From the NCBI GenBank assembly GCA_905235735.1, contig CAJOMU010000019.1:1-58102 (forward strand): a stretch of DNA of 58,102 nt. Reading direction: 5' to 3'. Positions 5,650-23,874 of this stretch are shown piece by piece. The DNA is from an uncultured Synergistales bacterium. Lineage in GTDB: Bacteria > Synergistota > Synergistia > Synergistales > Aminobacteriaceae. The position numbers and the translations under genes were made by a program. The stretch's first letter is position 1, and every line of letters begins with the position of its first letter. The notes beneath the pieces are model-generated. The model was given only the letters and a program-made list of their open reading frames with translations, did no database searches and was not told where the DNA came from.

Positions 5650-7545
5650 TTAACGTAATGGATTGAACTCCTTCGATAAGACATTCATGAACTCATCAAG
5701 ACTCATTGAGCCTAAATCTCCCTTTGAACGTTCACGAACGCCTACAGTGTGATTCTCTTTCTCCTTATCACCCACGACAAGCATGTACGGTATCTTCTGC
5801 ATCTGTGCATCACGAATCTTCCTTCCGAGTTTCTCAGAGCGAGTATCAATCTCTGAACGCAAATTCTGATTCATGAATGCATTCTGAAGTTCACGAGCGT
5901 AATCGAGATGTGAATCAGCAATCGGGATAATCTTAATCTGAACAGGTGCAAGCCAGTACGGGAAAGCTCCTGCGTAATGTTCAATGAGAATTCCCATGAA
6001 ACGCTCAACACTTCCGAATACAACTCTGTGAATCAATACAGGTGTATGTTCTGCTCCGTCTTCACCGATATACGTAACATCAAAGCGTCCGGGAAGCTGG
6101 AAGTCCAACTGAATTGTTCCGCACTGCCATGTTCTGCCTATGCAGTCCTCAAGGTGAAAGTCTATCTTAGGGCCGTAAAACGCTCCGTCTCCGGGATTAA
6201 TCGTGTATGGAGTGTTTGTGCTTTCGAGTGCTTCACGTAATGCATTCTCTGCTTCGTTCCATTGTTCATCTGTTCCCATTGAATCATCTGGTCTGGTTGA
6301 GAGTTCAACTGTGTATTTGAATCCGAAGACGTTCGTGTAAAAATATTTATCCAGCTCCATGATTGCAGTTACTTCTTCGCGTATCTTTGAAGGCTCAATA
6401 TATGTATGAGCATCATCCTGCGTGAAGCATCGTACTCTCATGAGGCCATGTAACACACCGCTCTTTTCGTGTCTGTGAACGCAGCCGAGTTCAGCCAGTC
6501 TCATGGGCAAATCACGATAGCTTCGTAACTGTGTCTTGTAGACGAGAATGCTTCCGGGACAATTCATAGGTTTAATTGCATAAGTTTTCTCGTCAATCTC
6601 AGTGAGATACATATTCTCTCTGTAATGATCCCAATGGCCAGAACGTACCCACAATTCACGGTCGAGAATCTGAGGTGTCTTAATCTCAGTGTAGCCTCGC
6701 TTGATGTGTTCGCGTCTCCAGAACTCAATCAATGTATTCATGACTGCCATTCCCTTTGGGTGGAAGAAGGGGAAACCTGGCCCTTCCTCATGTAAGCTGA
6801 AGAGGTCTAAATCTTTTCCGAGCTTTCTGTGATCTCGTAATTTGGCCTCTTCCATTCGTCGAATATATTCTTTCAGTTCATCGGGAGTTGCAAAAGCAGT
6901 TCCGTATATTCTCGTGAGCATTTTGTTGTGTTCATCACCGCGCCAATATGCACCGGCAATCGAGAGCAGTTTGAAGTTATGAATCTTTGATGCATCAGAT
7001 ACATGAGGGCCTCTGCAAAGGTCTGCATATTCTCCCTGCTTATACACTGATACAGTTGGAGCATCAATATCTGTGATGAGTTCAGTTTTGTATGGGTCAT
7101 TCTGGAAGAACTTCAACGCTTCATCTTTCGTCATGTCGGAACGTGAAACCTTTTCACCTGCTCCTGCAATCTTTCTCATTTCGGCTTCTATTTTGGGCAG
7201 GTCATCTTCAGTGATTGTTCCTGCAACATCGACATCATAATAGAATCCGTCTTTGATAGCCGGGCCTACACCGAAGTGTGAGCCTGGATATAATCTCAGG
7301 ATTGCCTGAGCCATTAAGTGAGCTGTTGAGTGTCTGAGTATCTCTAAACCTTCAGGTGAATCGATTGTGATCGCGTCAACTTCACCTGATGTGCTTACGA
7401 TTCGAGAGAGGTCAGAGAGTTCACCGTTGAATTTAGCGGCGATTACCTTTTTATTATCTAGGCCAAGAGCTTTGATAACTTCATGCAGAGTTATGTTCTC
7501 ACTGTCAGAATTATATTGTCTGTCTTCATGTTTAAACTGTAACAA
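5650..7545 (-). CDS. thrS: Threonyl-tRNA synthetase
   Basis: A class II synthetase of 631 residues that charges tRNA-Thr. Domains in order: TGS (about 1-60); editing domain with HSTAH (His72, His76) and the CRGPH zinc-like motif; catalytic core with MNCPGS (zinc Cys), DDAHTY and HRVVFGSVERF (zinc His and motif 3 region); anticodon-binding domain from about 530. The length is normal for bacterial ThrRS and the editing site looks intact. The start is TTG, because no ATG fits and an AAGGAAGG ribosome site lies about 9 bases upstream. I see no T-box leader in front; a promoter-like pair sits in the 88-base gap. Confidence 0.97.
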   Translation of the reverse strand: MLQFKHEDRQYNSDSENITLHEVIKALGLDNKKVIAAKFNGELSDLSRIVSTSGEVDAITIDSPEGLEILRHSTAHLMAQAILRLYPGSHFGVGPAIKDGFYYDVDVAGTITEDDLPKIEAEMRKIAGAGEKVSRSDMTKDEALKFFQNDPYKTELITDIDAPTVSVYKQGEYADLCRGPHVSDASKIHNFKLLSIAGAYWRGDEHNKMLTRIYGTAFATPDELKEYIRRMEEAKLRDHRKLGKDLDLFSLHEEGPGFPFFHPKGMAVMNTLIEFWRREHIKRGYTEIKTPQILDRELWVRSGHWDHYRENMYLTEIDEKTYAIKPMNCPGSILVYKTQLRSYRDLPMRLAELGCVHRHEKSGVLHGLMRVRCFTQDDAHTYIEPSKIREEVTAIMELDKYFYTNVFGFKYTVELSTRPDDSMGTDEQWNEAENALREALESTNTPYTINPGDGAFYGPKIDFHLEDCIGRTWQCGTIQLDFQLPGRFDVTYIGEDGAEHTPVLIHRVVFGSVERFMGILIEHYAGAFPYWLAPVQIKIIPIADSHLDYARELQNAFMNQNLRSEIDTRSEKLGRKIRDAQMQKIPYMLVVGDKEKENHTVGVRERSKGDLGSMSLDEFMNVLSKEFNPLR

Positions 7546-7633: not shown

Positions 7634-8556
7634 TCACGAATACAGCTTCTGAATCTCTCTGATTATTGCTGCATCCTTTGTCTCATCAAATTTTCTGGCG
7701 AACATGGCTTCAGACTGCTTTATTTCTTCGAGGTCATCAATTGTGAACACGTAAGGGCCGCCGCGTTTCCAATCAATAAAACGAGCATTGTTACGGAAAA
7801 GTCGATTACGAAAATCTGAGGCTCTCACTATTGTATGTAAAAACACTTCATCACAGCAGAATGTGTAACAGAAAACTTTTCGTATCCAGTCTTTTTGTGT
7901 GAGAACATATCTTGCTAGTTCGTCCGTTATGCTAAACCAGTTACTCCCTTTCTGAAAATTGATTCCTCTGTTTCTTTCTCTGCGCGTTATCTTCTGAAAT
8001 AACTTCTGAAATTTGATACAAGCACCATTTAGTTTCCTGATAGAAAAATTTCGTACCCTTGTAAAAAATTTTCTATCCCTGCCTACATACTCTTGCAAAG
8101 GATGATAAAACCTAACTCTAACTTCGTGGTCCGCTGGAAAAATATCACTCTGAAAGCTCACGAATTCAAGCCCATGATGCTCCTCAAAGAACGCAATAAT
8201 ATCTTCCTGCTTCTTTATGGGAAGGTCTGCTCCAGACAACAGATGATAATGCTCATAGCTTCCATTTTCAGTAGATGCTTCAAGCAATATCATTTCTGCT
8301 TCGATCTGGCTGTATCCTCCCCATGCAACTTTGATTCTCCTTGTGTGATATATATTGCTGAACTTAACGAGTTTCAAAGTGTCAGAAGGGTTGTATAATT
8401 TGTTCTTAGCATCCATGTGAATGAAGATATCATTTTGAGGGTGGTCGAGCATTTGAATCAATGTTTTGAATGTTAAGTCTGTTTTATGCGCAATAATCAG
8501 ATATGCCTGCCTGCCTGCCTGCCTGCCTGCCTGAAGGAATCTACATGCTCAATCAT
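7634..8556 (-). CDS. Phase-variable GT14 glycosyltransferase (Core-2/I-branching type), OFF in this sequence
   Basis: The enzyme reads from the repeat at 8504-8533 to a TGA at 7634. Its N-terminus YLIIAHKTDL, then GGYSQIEAEM, HYHLLSGADLP, GSNWFSIT and CCDEVFLHT, are typical of beta-1,6-N-acetylglucosaminyltransferase-like GT14 proteins, which branch glycans using nucleotide sugars. The obvious start is ATG at 8556. It overlaps the TAA of the upstream MATE gene as TAATG, a classic coupled start. From that ATG the frame runs through the tetranucleotide repeat but is off by one repeat unit and stops at 8497 after 19 codons. One extra unit (or two fewer) joins it to the enzyme, giving about 308 residues. 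A weak internal TTG at 8461 would lose the first strand of the fold. A sequencing error in the repeat is the main alternative. Confidence 0.8.
8504..8533. repeat. Tetranucleotide repeat (TGCC, about 7.5 copies) in the 5-prime end of the GT14 gene
   Basis: Thirty bases of uninterrupted TGCC units (GGCA on the coding strand) lie 22 codon-bases inside the GT14 reading frame. Four-base repeats near the start of surface-glycan glycosyltransferase genes are classic slipped-strand switching tracts. In the ON frame the tract codes for a repeated Arg-Gln-Ala-Gly segment directly before the enzyme fold. Confidence 0.95.
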
Positions 8557-9938
8557 TAGATTGTCAAGCCTTTCTGTGAAGAAAATTTTTGAGTAAATTG
8601 ATTATACACTATTAACGACATAATCACCATCATAATATCTGCAACTACCTGCGTCCATACTATGCCATACATTCCAAAGACGTAATTCATCACGAACAGT
8701 AACGGAATGTTGAACACTACCCAGCGTGATGCTCCGAGTATTAATGCCTTCCCTCCATGACCAACAGCCTGAAAGAAATTCACCAGATGAAAGCACATGA
8801 ACATGAACGGTGTAGCAAGAGCACGAGCACGCAGAAAATGTGTACCAAGCTCTATGGTCTGAACGTCAGCAATGAATATTCTCATGATATACGATGCAAA
8901 TATCTCATACATCAGTACACTAACGAATCCGAAAATCAATCCTGCTATACGTGAGAACCGAACAACTTCACGCATTCGATTGAAATTTCCAGATGAATAA
9001 TTGTAGGCTGCTATCGGCATCATTCCCTGACAGATTCCAATTCCAATGTTCAAAGGCAAACGTTCAGCCTTCAGAACAATTCCAATTGCCGCCAGAGGAA
9101 TATCACCGTAACCTGATGCGAGCTTATCGATGACTATATATGTGAGGTCAAAGAGGAACACTGAGATTGCCGCAGGAACTCCAACATAAAAAACTGAATA
9201 CACGTTCTTGCGTGAAGGAAGAATTTTCTTCAGCGACAATGATAGTGCACTGTTTCCTTTTAGCCTGAAGAGAATCACATACAGGAAGTATGCACATATA
9301 ATTACGTTTGAAAGCATAGTAGCAATTCCTGCACCGAGAACCTCATAACCTTTGGGAAGAATTACGAACATGAACAGAGGATCTAAGAATATGTTTATGA
9401 GTCCTCCCATTGAAACACCGAAGCCCGCCTCTTTAGCGTAACCTGTACTGCGGAGAATGCTGCTCATCGTCATAGATAGTATCGTTGGTATTGCACCGAT
9501 AACGATGACGCAGAACGTATACTGTTCAGCGAAAATCAATGTGTTATCGCTCGCACCAAGCACACGGAGAATCGAATCCATGAATACGAACATGAAGAGC
9601 GAAAACATTCCGGCAGAGATTATCGTCATGTAGAAACTGAATGAACTTACACGTTTGGCTTCATTGTCCCGTCCTGCTCCGATTAAACGGGATATTAATG
9701 TTCCGCCTCCGATGCCGAAGAGATTCGCGAATGATATTGAGATGTTGAAGACAGGAAGCAATAACGATACGCCTGCGACCATTAAGGGATTGTTAGTGCG
9801 TCCAATGAAGAAGGTATCAGCGAGATTATAGATTAGTATGATGAGCTGACCGAATATCATAGGCACAGCAAATTCTGCTAATGCTTTAGGGATTGGCCAA
9901 GTTTCAAAGACTGCACGGTTATTCTTTGAATGATTCAT
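8556..9938 (-). CDS. MATE family multidrug/metabolite exporter
   Basis: A 460-residue protein with about 12 membrane segments, in the two-times-six arrangement of MATE antiporters. The N-terminus has the family pattern PMIFGQLIILIYNLADTFFIG. MATE proteins use sodium or proton gradients to expel organic cations, drugs or, in some relatives, lipid-linked or peptide compounds; the substrate is unknown here. The ATG has a good ribosome site (GGAGGAA). The gene overlaps the end of the specificity subunit gene by 20 bases, and its TAA overlaps the ATG of the GT14 gene, so it is embedded in the restriction-modification operon. Confidence 0.92.
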   Translation of the reverse strand: MNHSKNNRAVFETWPIPKALAEFAVPMIFGQLIILIYNLADTFFIGRTNNPLMVAGVSLLLPVFNISISFANLFGIGGGTLISRLIGAGRDNEAKRVSSFSFYMTIISAGMFSLFMFVFMDSILRVLGASDNTLIFAEQYTFCVIVIGAIPTILSMTMSSILRSTGYAKEAGFGVSMGGLINIFLDPLFMFVILPKGYEVLGAGIATMLSNVIICAYFLYVILFRLKGNSALSLSLKKILPSRKNVYSVFYVGVPAAISVFLFDLTYIVIDKLASGYGDIPLAAIGIVLKAERLPLNIGIGICQGMMPIAAYNYSSGNFNRMREVVRFSRIAGLIFGFVSVLMYEIFASYIMRIFIADVQTIELGTHFLRARALATPFMFMCFHLVNFFQAVGHGGKALILGASRWVVFNIPLLFVMNYVFGMYGIVWTQVVADIMMVIMSLIVYNQFTQKFSSQKGLTI

Positions 9939-11319
9939 GAAGTTCCTCCAGATATGTTATTGCTGATTGTTCAGAAGATTCTATTGCGAGTTCAACGGAA
10001 TGGACAGCGGCATTAATTAGGTGTTCAGATTTTCGTCTGAGAGTGAATGATTGTTGAACATGACCTGCGATTATATTTTGTGTTTCGCGGTCGATTATGG
10101 GCAAGTTGATTTTCTGCAATTCGTTCTCAGATATTGATGATAATATTGTTCCCGAACAGCCTCGCTTCATCAGGTCTTGAATCACAGATGACTTGAATAG
10201 CATTAACAGGGTTTCGGAATTATACACATCTGAATCAATGACGTAAAAGCCAGTTGAACATAATGCATTATCATATTCCTCTGTGATTAGAGCACAACTT
10301 TGCAATGAACCTTCAATAGACGAGACTATCACCTGTCCTGCATGAATTATACGCCTTGCTCTTGTTGGCAGTTCTGCTCCGTCCGCTGTTATTGTCCCTG
10401 TGATGTTTCCATATGTCCCAATGTCTGCAAGTTCTATATAGCTGTAACGTTTGCCATTCTGCGGTGTGAAGTTATCTCCGTGAATGTTACACACATCTTC
10501 GAATATGTATGCGCCTTTGAGTTTATCGAGAATGTAATCGTATTTCGGCATGAAGTATTCTGCATCAAGTCTGCCTGTACTGAATACCTCACTGAATGAT
10601 TTTGAAGTTACGTTCTTCTGTGAGAGTGATGAAGACGTGAAGTGAATTGCATCGTTGAGTATATTTTGTGTTTCAGTGTATATTCTTGATGACTCACGAA
10701 TTGCATTATCACTCTCTACGATGAGTGAGCTTACACGTTCGGAAAAATCATCATTGAATCTTGGAATAGGGATAATACACATATCACTTACATTCAATTT
10801 TGGTTGGACATTTCCGCTCTTCCTTCTTTGCAATAATATTTGCCCATAGTGCGAATTAAGATACGCTAACATAACATGCTTTTCTTGTGTGGAATATGCT
10901 GATAGCTTGAGACCTATATTATTCTCGCTTATATTACACGTTCCTAATTCAGAATCAACACGAGCAAACAAACCTACACTACCTACTTTCGACAATATTA
11001 AATCATCTGTGTATAGCTGAGAATTGGCCAATCGTGTATTATCCCCATTGGAAATATATACAAGACTATCTCGACTAATATGGAAGCCTCCTCTTATATT
11101 CTCGATTCTAACAAAAGCTATATCTCCATCTGTCATATACGCAGAGCTTTTCAGCGTTGAACCGAACGGGCCACTTACTACATCTTTCTTTTTTAAGAAT
11201 ATATGCTCTTTCCGCATGATAAATTGTTCTATGCTTTCTGCTGTCTTCGAGTAATATTCCGCATCAAGTCGTCCTGATAAAGAACTCAGCATCATTTCAC
11301 TGCATTCAAGCCCATCCAT
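9919..11319 (-). CDS. Type I-style specificity subunit (HsdS-like) with two target recognition domains
   Basis: A 466-residue DNA sequence-recognition subunit. Two half-proteins repeat the same layout, each opening with SGRLDAEYY (about residues 15-23) or TGRLDAEYF (about 247-255), followed by a variable recognition domain and a helical spacer. The KPKLN-like element QPKLNVSDMCIIPIP is present in the first half. Such a subunit directs the nuclease-methylase encoded immediately upstream to a bipartite DNA site. Its ATG overlaps the methylase TAA (TAATG). No second, silent hsdS or recombinase is visible nearby, so recognition-domain shuffling is not suggested by this window. Confidence 0.9.
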   Translation of the reverse strand: MDGLECSEMMLSSLSGRLDAEYYSKTAESIEQFIMRKEHIFLKKKDVVSGPFGSTLKSSAYMTDGDIAFVRIENIRGGFHISRDSLVYISNGDNTRLANSQLYTDDLILSKVGSVGLFARVDSELGTCNISENNIGLKLSAYSTQEKHVMLAYLNSHYGQILLQRRKSGNVQPKLNVSDMCIIPIPRFNDDFSERVSSLIVESDNAIRESSRIYTETQNILNDAIHFTSSSLSQKNVTSKSFSEVFSTGRLDAEYFMPKYDYILDKLKGAYIFEDVCNIHGDNFTPQNGKRYSYIELADIGTYGNITGTITADGAELPTRARRIIHAGQVIVSSIEGSLQSCALITEEYDNALCSTGFYVIDSDVYNSETLLMLFKSSVIQDLMKRGCSGTILSSISENELQKINLPIIDRETQNIIAGHVQQSFTLRRKSEHLINAAVHSVELAIESSEQSAITYLEELHESFKE

Positions 11320-13334
11320 TAAAGCACAGTACTTCTCCTCAATGAATGGGCATCCACGAAAAAACTTAATCCCTCCCTCTTCGCAAACTCAATAAACGCC
11401 TCAGCAATCCCGTCCTCAGTCAATCCATCATGGTTGAATAAATCATGATCCACTATCGGATGATAATTCCTATCCTTCATGTAATTCCCTTTCTCATCCC
11501 TCCGTATTATCTTCTCTCCTGAATTATCCTTGCCTGGTCTCCTCATCGTCGCAAAAAACACAGGGTAATCTTCACGTCTCGGACATAAATCATCATCCCA
11601 TTTCTGCACAAGCAAAACTGATGTCTTCGTCCCAGTGTGAGGCTTGAATACATTCTCATGAAGTCCAATCACCGCAAGTATTCTGCACCTCTCCGCAATG
11701 AAATCACGAATGTATTTGTCGCTCGAATTATTGAACCTGCCCTGCGGAAGAATAATCGCCATTCGTCCGCCAGGTTTCAGAAACTGAAGGTTACGCTCAA
11801 TGAACAGAATATCCCTGCCCACTTTTATCTGTGTCTTCCCTCTCGCATTCTTTCCGAGTTCATATTTCGATATTATGGTCGGCTCTTTGATGTCCCCTGC
11901 AAACGGAGGATTCGCCATCACAATATCAAAATTGAAGTTCCTGTAGCTCTCTTCATTCTCTGCAAACGTGAGAAATCTGAACCAGCCTTCATGATATTTC
12001 TGCATCCATGCTAGCGGCTTCGTTATCTCCTTCCACCTCCCATAATCGAGAGTGTTCAGGTGCATTACGTTCGTATGTCCGTCTCCTGCAATGAGATTCA
12101 GGGTTTTCGCAACACGTACTGCTTTGTCATCGAAGTCAATCGCGAACACTTTATCCTTCACATAGTCCGTGTATTCCGGCGGTCTCGTTTCACCAGTAAA
12201 CATATGACTGTCTGTTATACCTCGTTCTGCATCAAGCTGCCTCCAGACGTAAAATATCGTGTGAACAGGGAATCCGCATGACCCTGCTGCTGTGTCTATC
12301 ATTGATTCGTGCTTCTGTGGATTGAGCATCTTAACGCACATGTCGATAACGTATCGAGGTGTGAAGAACTGTCCTTTTTCACCCTTCTGTGATTTATTCA
12401 TGAGGTATTCAAACGCATCATCTATGACATCAAGATTGGAGTTGAATAGTTTCACGTCCTGAAGATATGATACACAATAAGCAAGGTGCGAAGGTGTCAG
12501 CGAAATTTTATCTTTTGAATCAAAAACTCCTTTCCATTTTTGTGATGCCTCTTTGAAAAGTGATTCGATGATCTTCTTCAGTTCATCGTCAGTGTAGCCG
12601 TAATTCCGAAATTCAAGAGTGCGTGTTTCTCTGTCTATGCTCATCTTCTCATCATAGAGTTTCGTGAATATCAGCCTAAATACTTCTTCAAATGCATCTA
12701 CTCCTGCATTGGCTAATATGTCATCTTCCATTTCGAGAATTATATCCTTGAGAGTTTTCCTGCCTTCTTTGAGTTTATTTTCACGTTCAAGGTCATTAAT
12801 CGTCCATCGTTCTTTAAGCAGGTCAGAGAGTTTCTGATTAGCTTTTGGAATCTCTGTTAGTGATTCAAAGATATTAGGTTCTTTCCTGTGATAATATGAA
12901 GAAATCTGTCCGTTTATCCACACTCCAATTATTGCTCCTGTTGCATTGCAATATGATTTGAGCTGTTCTTTTCCTTCTCTGAGGTTAGGCTTTTTGACCT
13001 CAACTATAATGTATTCTGATTCTTTGCGTTCATGGTCAAATATCACGATGTCTGCGCGTTTCACTTCACGTCCAAAGTGTATTGCGTGTTCAAGTCCAAT
13101 GTTTTCAGGTGAGTATCCGTAAATGTGAATCAGTTCATACACATATAGCTGACGTACTGCTTCTTCTGGTGTAAGCCTGATTTCTTTATTGCGAATGATG
13201 CACCTGATGTACGGAACTTCTGAGCCTCGAATCGTTTTTGTGATTATTGCGCTCTCGATTGCATTCAAGGTTTCGGGTCTGAATATTGAACCTTTATGCG
13301 TGCTGTTCCTGAATAGTTCAGATAGTGAGTACAT
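11319..13334 (-). CDS. Fused restriction nuclease-adenine methylase (BcgI-like RM subunit)
   Basis: A 671-residue protein. The N-terminal part (about 1-150) is an HsdR-N-like PD-(D/E)XK nuclease, with Asp95 in RADIVIF and Glu112-Val-Lys114 in VEVKKP. The middle and C-terminal parts are an N6-adenine methyltransferase with an HsdM-like helical region, the AdoMet motif DTAAGSCGFP and catalytic NPPF. A fused RM protein with a separate S subunit and no HsdR motor is the arrangement of type IIB enzymes such as BcgI, which cut on both sides of their site. The start has an AGGAGG ribosome site. This is the first gene of a four-gene overlapping operon. Cleavage activity is inferred from motifs only. 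Confidence 0.88.
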   Translation of the reverse strand: MYSLSELFRNSTHKGSIFRPETLNAIESAIITKTIRGSEVPYIRCIIRNKEIRLTPEEAVRQLYVYELIHIYGYSPENIGLEHAIHFGREVKRADIVIFDHERKESEYIIVEVKKPNLREGKEQLKSYCNATGAIIGVWINGQISSYYHRKEPNIFESLTEIPKANQKLSDLLKERWTINDLERENKLKEGRKTLKDIILEMEDDILANAGVDAFEEVFRLIFTKLYDEKMSIDRETRTLEFRNYGYTDDELKKIIESLFKEASQKWKGVFDSKDKISLTPSHLAYCVSYLQDVKLFNSNLDVIDDAFEYLMNKSQKGEKGQFFTPRYVIDMCVKMLNPQKHESMIDTAAGSCGFPVHTIFYVWRQLDAERGITDSHMFTGETRPPEYTDYVKDKVFAIDFDDKAVRVAKTLNLIAGDGHTNVMHLNTLDYGRWKEITKPLAWMQKYHEGWFRFLTFAENEESYRNFNFDIVMANPPFAGDIKEPTIISKYELGKNARGKTQIKVGRDILFIERNLQFLKPGGRMAIILPQGRFNNSSDKYIRDFIAERCRILAVIGLHENVFKPHTGTKTSVLLVQKWDDDLCPRREDYPVFFATMRRPGKDNSGEKIIRRDEKGNYMKDRNYHPIVDHDLFNHDGLTEDGIAEAFIEFAKREGLSFFVDAHSLRRSTVL

Positions 13335-20734: not shown

Positions 20735-22687
20735 TTATTCTTCGAGAAGCTGTTCAATCACAGATAACGGTTTGCCTGTTATATCAGCAATTTCTTCCGG
20801 CGTGAGGAGATTTTTATTCATCAGCCATCTCAATATAGATACCATTGATGAACGGCCTTTAGCTTTCTGTCTGTCCCATAAATCTTGACGCTGAAGCAGT
20901 CTGTCTGCATATATGTCTTCATGGCCTGGATATATATTTGTGAAGTAATCTGCCATAAAATGCAGGTCTTCATCTTCAAAATCACTTTTCTTCTCGTAAA
21001 TATATACTCTGACATCTTTATTTAATATGAATGTTCGGTCAAGTTTCACAAAGTGCCTGCCTATTTTAGAATCACTCTTCGGAATTTCATCTGCGAAAAA
21101 TTCCACGTTCTGCTGACTTCCCTTTTTGAGATGCGTCTGAACAGGATCAGTAACTACAATAATATCTGCACTGAGAATTTCCATAGGGAATCCGTCTCTC
21201 ATATCAACACTGCCGAAGCCTAGCAGATTATGAAGACTGGAAGATTCATACGGGAGCTTCAGGTTCGACATTATATCTCCATTCAGAACTCCGCTACTGG
21301 CCAGTATGAAAACTTTCCTGTCAGTGTCTTTCGTCATTGAATTTAGGTAGTCTGCAAGCTCGTTGAGTTCGTGAATATCATCACGCTTAAGAGGAGTATA
21401 TTCATTACCTAAGAACCCCGATAATACTTTGAGTGCAGGCCTTGTTTCAGGCAAATATGAGTTTGCAAATCCGGCGCAGAACAGCAGAACAAATATGAAT
21501 AAGACAATTCTATTTTTGAAGACTATAACACTCTGGGCTATGCATATACACACAAGGATGAATACTTGTATACAAATAGTGTATATGTGATGAATTCCCA
21601 TTGACTGAACATGAAAGAATGCCGCCATAGTGAAAATCAGAGATGCAGCGGAAAAGCACGCATACCTTCTCATTGTCCGCGTGATGAACGTGAGAATAAC
21701 TCCAAGCCCGGCGAGTATAAATGTAAAAGCTCCAAATATATGAATAACTCCGAGTATCTTATTCATCAAAGGTGCGTTATATCCTTCATACATCTGCGAA
21801 TAGCTGTTCCTGAGTACACGTATCAGCATTGGAGCAAAGAATATCATCATTACGGCAAGAGCAAACAAACCAATCACTGATATATTCACAAAAACATTCC
21901 TGAACAGCTTAACTTTCGATTCACGTCCCGAATAACTGAACACTGAATGCAGAGACAAAAGTATAAGAGCGAACACATAGCCTTCAACGAAAAATGCAAA
22001 GTATCTTCGGAACATGAGAGTACACAGCAGTAATGCAGAAATATATACGTCTCGTTTAATCTGTTCACGCGATATACTAAGCGCATCATACTCTTTCAGG
22101 AGAAGCATTGATAATGAGGCAGGAACAAGACATGCCACATCTATATAGCCTCTGAGCATTGCAAAATAGAACGGAGTAAATGTGAAGGCTGCGAACATAA
22201 AGAGTAATAATAATCCTGGCATACGTTTTCCTGTTAGTGATTTTGTCAGCGATAATAGTATGAACCATGCCGGTATCAGAAAGCATATGCAGTTCACCAT
22301 GACATAGCGTGTAAAGGTATATCCTGCGATTTTAAGCGGAATTGCTATTAGCATCGGCAATATAGTATTGTAATCTGAAAACCATATCTTTCCTCCAAGC
22401 CTTAATACTGATAACAGAGGCTTTTTGAAGAGCTGTTGCATATTAGTGAAAGATGCTGTCCAGTAACCGCTGAAATCCCAGTAGTATATAAACCTATTCT
22501 GACTTATGAGCCAGTAACACAGCCATGCACCAGCAAAAGCAAATACGAAAAACATAAACCTGCTCTTCTTGTCATTTAGCAAGCTCTTCTGTTCCCCCTT
22601 AAGCGCAAAATTATATGCACTCATAAACAGCCAGATGAAAAACGACATAAACGCAATTGCAAAGATTAAACCTGCAAAACTTATCAT
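20735..22687 (-). CDS. Polytopic membrane glycosyltransferase (GT-C fold)
   Basis: A 650-residue integral membrane protein with about 11-13 hydrophobic segments in residues 1-420 and an acidic YYWDFSGYW segment in the first large loop, typical of GT-C enzymes that use lipid-linked sugars. It overlaps the upstream GT2 gene by four bases (ATGA). Such GT2 + GT-C pairs decorate surface glycans: the GT2 loads a sugar on polyprenyl phosphate and the GT-C transfers it outside. The soluble C-terminus is odd: its last 45 residues (DRQKAKGRSSM to the end) resemble the helical EEIAxxTG tail found on transposase-related nucleases rather than any glycosyltransferase part. The acceptor is unknown. Confidence 0.78.
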   Translation of the reverse strand: MISFAGLIFAIAFMSFFIWLFMSAYNFALKGEQKSLLNDKKSRFMFFVFAFAGAWLCYWLISQNRFIYYWDFSGYWTASFTNMQQLFKKPLLSVLRLGGKIWFSDYNTILPMLIAIPLKIAGYTFTRYVMVNCICFLIPAWFILLSLTKSLTGKRMPGLLLLFMFAAFTFTPFYFAMLRGYIDVACLVPASLSMLLLKEYDALSISREQIKRDVYISALLLCTLMFRRYFAFFVEGYVFALILLSLHSVFSYSGRESKVKLFRNVFVNISVIGLFALAVMMIFFAPMLIRVLRNSYSQMYEGYNAPLMNKILGVIHIFGAFTFILAGLGVILTFITRTMRRYACFSAASLIFTMAAFFHVQSMGIHHIYTICIQVFILVCICIAQSVIVFKNRIVLFIFVLLFCAGFANSYLPETRPALKVLSGFLGNEYTPLKRDDIHELNELADYLNSMTKDTDRKVFILASSGVLNGDIMSNLKLPYESSSLHNLLGFGSVDMRDGFPMEILSADIIVVTDPVQTHLKKGSQQNVEFFADEIPKSDSKIGRHFVKLDRTFILNKDVRVYIYEKKSDFEDEDLHFMADYFTNIYPGHEDIYADRLLQRQDLWDRQKAKGRSSMVSILRWLMNKNLLTPEEIADITGKPLSVIEQLLEE

Positions 22688-23664
22688 GATAAACTTACTC
22701 TCCTTTCTGAATTCACATTCACGCTCTCACTCACTATGTATCTTGGCCTGTGCTTACTCTCCATATACGTCTTCCCGACGTACTCACCTATAATCCCAAG
22801 ACTGAGTAACTGAATTCCTCCGAGAAAACATACGACACACATAGTAGATGCCCACCCTGTTACGTTATAGCCAGTTAGTGCAGCAACTAACGCCCAGATT
22901 ATTCCCGCAAGACCTACAAGACCAGCAATGATTCCCAATGAAGCAATGAGTGTTATGGGTTTTATCGTTAGGCTGGTGATTCCGTCAAAGGCAAGCGAGA
23001 GCATTTTCGATAACGGATAATGAGTTTCACCCGCAATCCTCTTCTTACGACTGTACATTACGCATGAACTCTTGAAACCTGCAAGCGGTATCATTCCCCT
23101 CAGAAAAATATTCACTTCTCTGAACTCTGCAAGGTGATTCAACACACGTGCACTAATCAGCCTGTAATCAGCATGATTGTAGACAACTTCAGCTCCCATT
23201 GAACGAATAATACCGTAGAACATCTGAGCTGTATTCCTCTTGAACCATGTATCATTTTCTCGGTCTGACCTCACTCCGTAGACAACTTCACTGCCTGAAG
23301 TATATTCACTGAGCATTTCATCAACCGCATTAATATCATCCTGGCCGTCGCAATCAAGCGATATGGTTACACTGCATTTGTCTTTTGCTTCCATTAGACC
23401 GGCCAGCAATGCATTCTGATGTCCTCTGTTGCGGCTGAGACTTATTCCTGAATAGTGATTATCCTGTGATGAAAGTTCTGTTATGATTCTCCACGTGTCA
23501 TCGCTTGAACCGTCATTGATGAAAAGTATTCTGCTGTTATCTGAAATTCTTCCTGATGAAATTAATTCTTTCAGCTTGGCCATGAATAACGGTGCTGTTA
23601 CTGGCAACACTTCCTGTTCGTTATAACATGGAATCACTAACCAGAGAAGCACATCCTGATTCAC
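22684..23664 (-). CDS. Polyprenyl-phosphate glycosyltransferase (GT2, GtrB/DPM1-like)
   Basis: A 326-residue GT2 enzyme. The N-terminal catalytic domain has VIPCYNEQEVLP, INDGSSDDT, SLSRNRGHQNALLAG and the metal-binding DCDGQDD. Two C-terminal transmembrane helices (about 235-290) end in the IGEYVGKTYMESKHRP motif typical of GtrB-like enzymes that make undecaprenyl-phosphate sugar. The start is GTG with AGGAG 8 bases before it; no ATG is available nearby. Its partner GT-C gene overlaps by four bases. The upstream region contains a 7-base tandem repeat that occupies the place of the -35 element. Confidence 0.9.
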   Translation of the reverse strand: MNQDVLLWLVIPCYNEQEVLPVTAPLFMAKLKELISSGRISDNSRILFINDGSSDDTWRIITELSSQDNHYSGISLSRNRGHQNALLAGLMEAKDKCSVTISLDCDGQDDINAVDEMLSEYTSGSEVVYGVRSDRENDTWFKRNTAQMFYGIIRSMGAEVVYNHADYRLISARVLNHLAEFREVNIFLRGMIPLAGFKSSCVMYSRKKRIAGETHYPLSKMLSLAFDGITSLTIKPITLIASLGIIAGLVGLAGIIWALVAALTGYNVTGWASTMCVVCFLGGIQLLSLGIIGEYVGKTYMESKHRPRYIVSESVNVNSERRVSLS

Positions 23665-23723
23665 GATTCGAACTCCTGAAATGCTTTTTGTGATTGTGAA
23701 TGTATAAAAGGACAGATTAAACT

Positions 23724-23751
23724 ACTGCGAACTGCGAACTGCGAACTGCGA
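23724..23751. repeat. Four tandem copies of the heptamer ACTGCGA
   Basis: Four perfect, adjacent copies lie in the intergenic region between the divergent GT2 gene and rnz. On the minus strand a TATACA box (23701-23706) sits 17 bases downstream of the array, so the first repeat falls where the -35 hexamer would be. The array is not a CRISPR: there are no spacers. Confidence 0.9.
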
Positions 23752-23874
23752 CTATTATACTGATTTAATTGCAATTCTGCAACCTCCTTATGTATGATTA
23801 ATTTAAATTATTTTAGCACATATTAAAGTGATAAAATTCCCTTCGTGAAAATTATTCGATAGGAGATAATAATA

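Follow-up and report, generated by a model that had tools for sequence, protein, structure and literature searches.

Reading frames and repeat tract at the GT14 locus

The window, as we call the whole stretch of 58,102 nucleotides analyzed here, carries on its minus strand a MATE-family transporter gene, a frame for a GT14 glycosyltransferase and a gene read as threonyl-tRNA synthetase, with a tetranucleotide repeat at the beginning of the GT14 frame. The features of the locus, all on the minus strand, are as follows.

5650..7545, minus, 631-aa gene read by sequence inspection as threonyl-tRNA synthetase (thrS), downstream of GT14
7634..8503, minus, GT14 enzyme frame, 289 codons plus stop, without a start of its own before the tract
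8497..8556, minus, OFF-state reading frame, 19 codons plus TGA, from sequence reading
8504..8533, minus, tetranucleotide tract (CAGG/GGCA)7.5, TGCC on the other strand, 30 nt, proposed slippage site
8554..8556, minus, start codon ATG in a TAATG overlap with the MATE stop, from sequence reading
8556..9938, minus, MATE-family transporter gene, upstream of GT14 and overlapping it
8562..8567, minus, TTGACA element of the shared leader
8569..8575, minus, AGAAAGG, Shine-Dalgarno-like element of the shared leader, 12 nt before the ATG
8601..8606, minus, TATAAT (TGTATAAT), -10-like element

Read along the minus strand from 8620 to 7634, the order is TGTATAAT, AGAAAGG, TTGACA, TAATG, the CAGG repeat, TATCTGATTATTGCGCAT and the open frame. 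The final A of the MATE stop codon TAA (8558-8556) also belongs to ATG 8556-8554, whose first base is 23 nt from the start of the tract, where Tandem Repeats Finder reported 7.5 perfect units. Translation from ATG 8556 gives MIEHVDSFRQAGRQAGRHI and then reaches TGA 8499-8497. The enzyme frame, YLIIAHK and onwards, occupies 8503-7637 with its stop at 7636-7634, and opens with TATCTGATTATTGCGCAT (YLIIAH) directly 3′ of the CAGG repeat. On its 5′ side the same frame runs into TGA 8551-8549 before any ATG, GTG or TTG is reached, and the first start inside the enzyme is TTG 8461. Leader and tract together measure 53 nt, and since 53 mod 3 is 2, a gain of 4 nt or a loss of 8 nt puts the enzyme back in frame; one unit added or two units removed would thus join ATG 8556 to the 289-codon GT14 frame. 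A first-pass annotation of this DNA had described the TAATG-coupled ATG with its 30-base repeat and stop after 19 codons, the lack of a start for the YLIIAHK frame before TGA 8549-8551, and the joining of the frames by one unit more or two fewer. Our reading of the sequence and the 53-nt arithmetic agree with all of this, and every coordinate of that annotation that was checked was accurate.

The repeat unit is not divisible by three, the tract lies between a start codon and a gene body, and its length is beyond chance. Across 458 kb of this genome, the tetranucleotide tracts that reached 10 nt were 10, 11 and 12 nt long, apart from the one of 30 nt, so that the next longest was 12 nt, and the maximum in 200 simulated 58-kb windows was 17 nt. 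It is also the only TGCC tract of at least 5 units in the 2.1-Mb genome. Directly upstream of the MATE and GT14 genes, a type I restriction-modification-like pair was seen at 9919-13334 (minus), consisting of a specificity-type protein and a fused HsdR-N/N6 methylase.

Identity of the enzyme and selection on its frame

The assignment of the frame to the GT14 glycosyltransferases, already made in the first-pass annotation, was borne out by sequence and by fold. The protein matched Pfam Branch (PF02485) with an E-value of 3.7e-25 and 89.4 bits, against a curated cut-off of 23.4, and a profile of the eight homologues matched xylosyltransferase 1 (6ej7, E 2.8e-17) and also core-2 GlcNAc-transferase. 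The AlphaFold model was modest (pLDDT 64), with a better N-terminal part; searched by Foldseek, this weak model gave 6ejc and 6foa (xylosyltransferase 1) and 3otk and 2gak (core-2 GlcNAc-transferase) as best matches, so the nearest solved structures of the predicted GT-A fold are GT14 enzymes. Residue E219 is invariant in 8/8 homologues and is aligned with a glutamate of xylosyltransferase 1, which may be the catalytic one.

In the same model the first beta strand comprises residues 2-5, immediately behind the tract, and a start inside the enzyme would therefore delete it. Selection on the frame was consistent with this position of the N-terminus. The enzyme frame is intact in all 8 genes of the clade described below, and dN/dS was 0.12-0.24 for those clade pairs in which dS was measurable and unsaturated, pairs of two OFF copies included, so that OFF copies are both intact and selected. 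Over the first approximately 30 codons, pN was 0.17 and pS 0.72. Judging from these patterns, the frame appears to be a working protein from the codon adjoining the tract, in which case its start must lie upstream of the tract. The internal TTG 8461 was considered as a start and rejected: an enzyme beginning there would lack the first strand, and the first codons show selection at the protein level.

Tract, phase and neighbours in related genomes

Homologues were searched in 43 genomes of the genus, 8 of which gave a GT14 gene. The clade of the window enzyme (n = 8 genes) consists of the window gene and those of G032, G027 (twice), G004, G005, G017 and G061, its members being 57-63% identical to the window; relatives that carry organism names are Synergistaceae MAGs from the goat digestive tract. 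All eight genes have a tetranucleotide tract at the same point, between the start codon and the YLII strand. In 7/8 homologues the gene starts with an ATG located 22-23 nt before the tract, and the remaining one uses GTG. The window has GGCA as its unit and the other members have units of AGCA type, which explains why no TGCC tracts were found in 60 relatives. Tract lengths were 4.75, 4.75, 4.75, 5, 5.25, 5.75, 6.75 and 7.5 units, the homologous tracts other than that of the window measuring 19-27 nt.

All three values of the start-to-enzyme phase occur in the clade. G004 and G017 are ON, with in-frame products of 305 and 303 aa, and the remaining six (window, G032, G027 twice, G005 and G061) are OFF, with both wrong phases represented. 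Repeat number thus differs between species of one genus, and open as well as closed frames are found. The first-pass annotation had proposed counting repeat units in related genomes and had named a fixed repeat number as the outcome that would speak against a switch; between species, the number varied and joined and unjoined states were both present.

The surroundings of the gene are partly shared. The GT14 genes of the window, G032, G005 and G027 (copy a) are followed by the 631-aa thrS-like gene. The window, G032 and G004 have a MATE-like gene immediately 5′ of GT14, and in G005 and G061 such a gene is found nearby. Because neighbours are shared and synonymous divergence is near saturation, the putative switch would be old and would have stayed at a single locus in most of these species. 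Relatives of the enzyme were also sought in viral contigs, and none were found there.

Bacterial GT14 genes outside the clade (L010, a homologue in G024; L066, from a MAG titled Merdimonas; L068, from a MAG titled uncultured Clostridia) belong to the same family and have a similar YLIIAH-like N-terminal strand. Unlike the window enzyme, they lack the tract, and a plain start codon stands just before the strand, as in MKHAFLINAH. Another GT14 homologue, L067 (Bacterium 1XD21-70), has a run of 9 G within the WGGYSQ motif at approximately 8178-8190, one G beyond the frame, and this related enzyme may thus have a homopolymer switch of separate origin.

A common leader and a genus-wide set of tracts

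The first-pass annotation knew of no such switching in this group of bacteria; our survey of the genus indicates that candidate switches are common in it. In 1.08 Mb of the same genome, which is 51% of it, approximately 16 tracts of at least 22 nt with units of 4, 5 or 7 nt were found, 7- and 5-nt tracts being dominant, while 6- and 9-nt repeats were few and each below 4 copies. Most tracts precede GT8, GT61, GT2, GT11, DUF4422, methyltransferase, FkbM-like, GNAT or DUF1919 genes. At 7 further loci, as at GT14, the frame that follows the tract lacks a usual start of its own close to where it begins, and the leader start currently leads into another frame. These further start-tract-ORF loci, all OFF in this assembly, are as follows.

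L098:3148-3225, GT61
L094:13608-13668, GT8
L130:3707-3758, methyltransferase
L111:5256-5297, DUF4422
L106:19711-19742, GT2
L135:2867-2962, FkbM-like
L091:144-172, unassigned

All 8 start-tract-ORF loci of the sampled half-genome are therefore OFF from the leader start, somewhat more than the two-thirds expected for random phase, which weighs against the switch reading. Genes of this kind were ON in relatives: a GT61-type gene (L157), two in L159, and one each in L161 and L156. In an orthologous trio of methyltransferase-like genes with 79-88% identity, tracts of 2.9, 4.1 and 5.9 units correspond to OFF, ON and OFF.

These genes share a leader. Its strict form, AAAGG-n-TTGACA-n-ATAATTGA, occurred at 42 places in 17/43 genus genomes (e.g., L139-L168). 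A reversed pattern used as control gave 0 matches, and the strict pattern also gave 0 in 137 other genomes from 57 other genera of the order. Out of 32 leader sites that were read, two of them counted twice through overlapping loci, 25 continue into a 5- or 7-nt tract and most of these then into a long open frame. ATAATTGA, which is degraded in the GT14 clade, leaves one frame open. An in-frame ATG was present in 39/41 distinct leaders, 6, 9, 12 or 15 nt from ATAATTGA, where shuffling expects 3.4; the 41 leaders are related copies rather than independent events, and the two main ATG positions both keep the frame. None of the 23 distinct tract units contains a sense stop codon and 7 have antisense stops; 1.2% of shuffled sets were free of sense stops as well.

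All 8 GT14 homologues have an exact TATAAT 5′ of the start codon, and so do 19/32 leaders, compared with 3.2 expected, mostly 21-31 nt before AAAGG. A transcript initiated from it would include the ribosome site, the start codon and the tract. Over the 42 strict sites in 17 genus genomes, TTGACA is also nearly fixed at 17 nt before ATAATT, across the leader start codon. This pair looks like a promoter, yet transcripts from it would begin inside the tract.

A second tract in the window is arranged differently, in the following way.

22684..23664, minus, GT2-like gene, 326 aa, by sequence inspection
23661..23774, minus, leader ORF with TTG start at 23774 after AAGGAGG, spanning the tract
23724..23751, minus, tract (TCGCAGT)4.0 inside the leader ORF before the GT2-like gene

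At the present repeat number, the TGA of the leader ORF overlaps the GTG of the GT2-like gene (GTGA), and one or two additional units would place the leader stop 52-57 nt before the GT2-like start. The same layout, with an ATGA overlap, was observed at L130:9503. From this arrangement, the GT2-like gene may be switched via a leader peptide to which its translation is coupled.

Interpretation of the tracts

We consider it very probable that the GT14 locus is a contingency locus whose translation is switched by slipped-strand mispairing in the tetranucleotide tract. The tract would act by its position between the start codon and the first beta strand of the enzyme. At 7.5 units, a ribosome starting at ATG 8556 would halt after 19 codons (OFF), while 8.5 or 5.5 units would give the full enzyme with a short N-terminus encoded by the repeat (ON). 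Slipped-strand mispairing would be the source of the variation seen between species, switching would presumably be reversible within a population, and the likely target is a surface glycan. The GT14 gene would be one of a genus-wide set of glycan genes in which a common leader precedes a tract with 4-, 5- or 7-nt units.

For the genus as a whole, we lean towards a broader reading, in which one gut-associated Synergistaceae genus runs a large combinatorial switchboard of surface glycans. A reusable leader (TATAAT, AGAAAGG, TTGACA, start codon and ATAATTGA) would stand before dozens of glycan enzymes that are unrelated to one another and that have individual hypermutable tracts of 4-, 5- or 7-nt units. 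It would act either on the enzyme frame directly or by way of a leader peptide, the stop of which meets the enzyme start at only one repeat number in three.

Two features of the leader count against the main reading. AGAAAGG is 12 nt from the ATG, beyond the usual spacing, and TTGACA, approximately 17 nt before ATAATT, places a promoter-like arrangement over the start codon. The tract might instead act on transcription from this adjacent upstream TTGACA-N17-ATAATT promoter, with the reading frame mattering little. In 1.08 Mb, TTGACA is followed after 16-18 nt by a TATAAT-like box 28 times in total, and 10 of these pairs stand before a tract; heptamer tracts in the promoters of Haemophilus hmw1A and hmw2A alter expression (PMC2651432). 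However, both boxes are degraded in the GT14 clade, the exact TATAAT lies further upstream at every GT14 locus and in more leaders than expected, the start codon stays in the one open frame, and no start for the enzyme frame follows the tract. We consider a transcriptional effect of this kind unlikely, and the pair as a promoter that leaves the ATG untranscribed was rejected as the main reading once the start codon proved to be biased towards one frame and a TATAAT was found further upstream.

That the gene is dead by frameshift and the repeat incidental would account for an assembled state that is unreadable from any normal start, but the frame runs for 289 codons without a stop, and six of the eight homologues are OFF and nevertheless intact, with purifying selection between them at dS near saturation. 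Two others are ON, and the tract stands at the same place in all, which makes a pseudogene extremely improbable. It is also very unlikely that the repeat number is an assembly or sequencing error in a gene fixed ON. The data are assemblies, in which contigs of the genus sometimes break off within a tract and a 12-N gap interrupts one of the tracts; a short read of usual length would, however, exceed the 30 nt of this tract, several independent assemblies agree in showing homologous tracts in mixed phases, and error could not yield a tract that keeps its place from species to species. Programmed ribosomal frameshifting or transcriptional slippage, by which the enzyme would be made at a fixed ratio, could explain why a repetitive tract sits exactly where the frame changes. 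Such a mechanism requires a single direction of shift, and the eight homologues are in three phases; moreover, no slippery heptamer was seen in the tract units, and many other genes have the same layout with different 5- and 7-nt units, leaving a programmed shift with very little probability. Phase variation is favored over pseudogene, assembly error and programmed frameshifting because the tract is conserved, three phases occur and the frame is selected, and no rival explains mixed phases together with selected frames.

Contig ends inside tracts were noted at G022 C1, C10, C13 and C19, G005 C98, the start of G000 C21 and the end of G000 C37, and the 12-N gap at L135:2915-2926. They fit unresolved or mixed repeat lengths, as expected.

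Relation to known systems

The switch mechanism itself is of a familiar kind, known from Haemophilus LPS genes and from neuO of E. coli. In Haemophilus influenzae, lic2A, lic3A, lgtC, lex2A and related LPS genes have tetranucleotide tracts in the 5′ coding region, and these glycan-modifying enzymes are turned ON or OFF by frame, as proposed for the GT14 locus; the lex2A unit is given as CAAG, the unit class of several homologues here (PMC2651432). The present case differs in that it concerns another phylum and mostly other enzymes, 7- and 5-nt tracts are dominant, and a leader is shared, a feature that the available part of PMC2651432 does not describe for the Haemophilus LPS genes. The heptanucleotide tracts of hmw1A and hmw2A lie near the promoter and differ in number between strains (PMC2651432); those tracts are in the promoter, whereas ours come after a start codon, which belongs either to the gene or to a leader ORF.

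The neuO gene of the E. coli K1 phage CUS-3 has a heptanucleotide AAGACTC tract at the 5′ end of a glycan-modifying enzyme and, as proposed for the loci described here, is full-length at one repeat number in three (PMC13001214). The unit GACTCAG found in our survey differs by a single base from a rotated form of the neuO unit. However, neuO is a single phage-borne gene (PMC13001214), and here many chromosomal loci with different units are concerned.

No report of repeat-tract phase variation in Synergistota was found in the part of the literature searched; the lineage, the scale and the common leader with different tract units look new. A 2025 review raises the question of why genomes rich in phase-variable loci appear to be limited to pathogens, and proposes that answering it may depend on loci from a wider range of bacterial lineages (PMC11868660). 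The candidate multi-locus glycan phasome of these Synergistaceae, with named relatives from goat digestive-tract metagenomes, bears directly on this question and hints at gut pressures such as phages, protozoa or host immunity. The common leader also provides a simple search handle for such genes.

Further repeat tracts

Tracts of (TGCT)n, 20-29 nt in length, were seen in other members of the genus (L044, L045, L047, L050, L051 and L053; minus relative to the RGCA orientation), several of them directly 3′ of a TATAAT-like box. The genes behind them were read as GT2, PglD-like, FkbM-like or large surface proteins. In the genome of the window, the homopolymers C10 (L091:6594-6603) and G11 (L094:3962-3972) lie near gene ends or starts and are possible further variable tracts.
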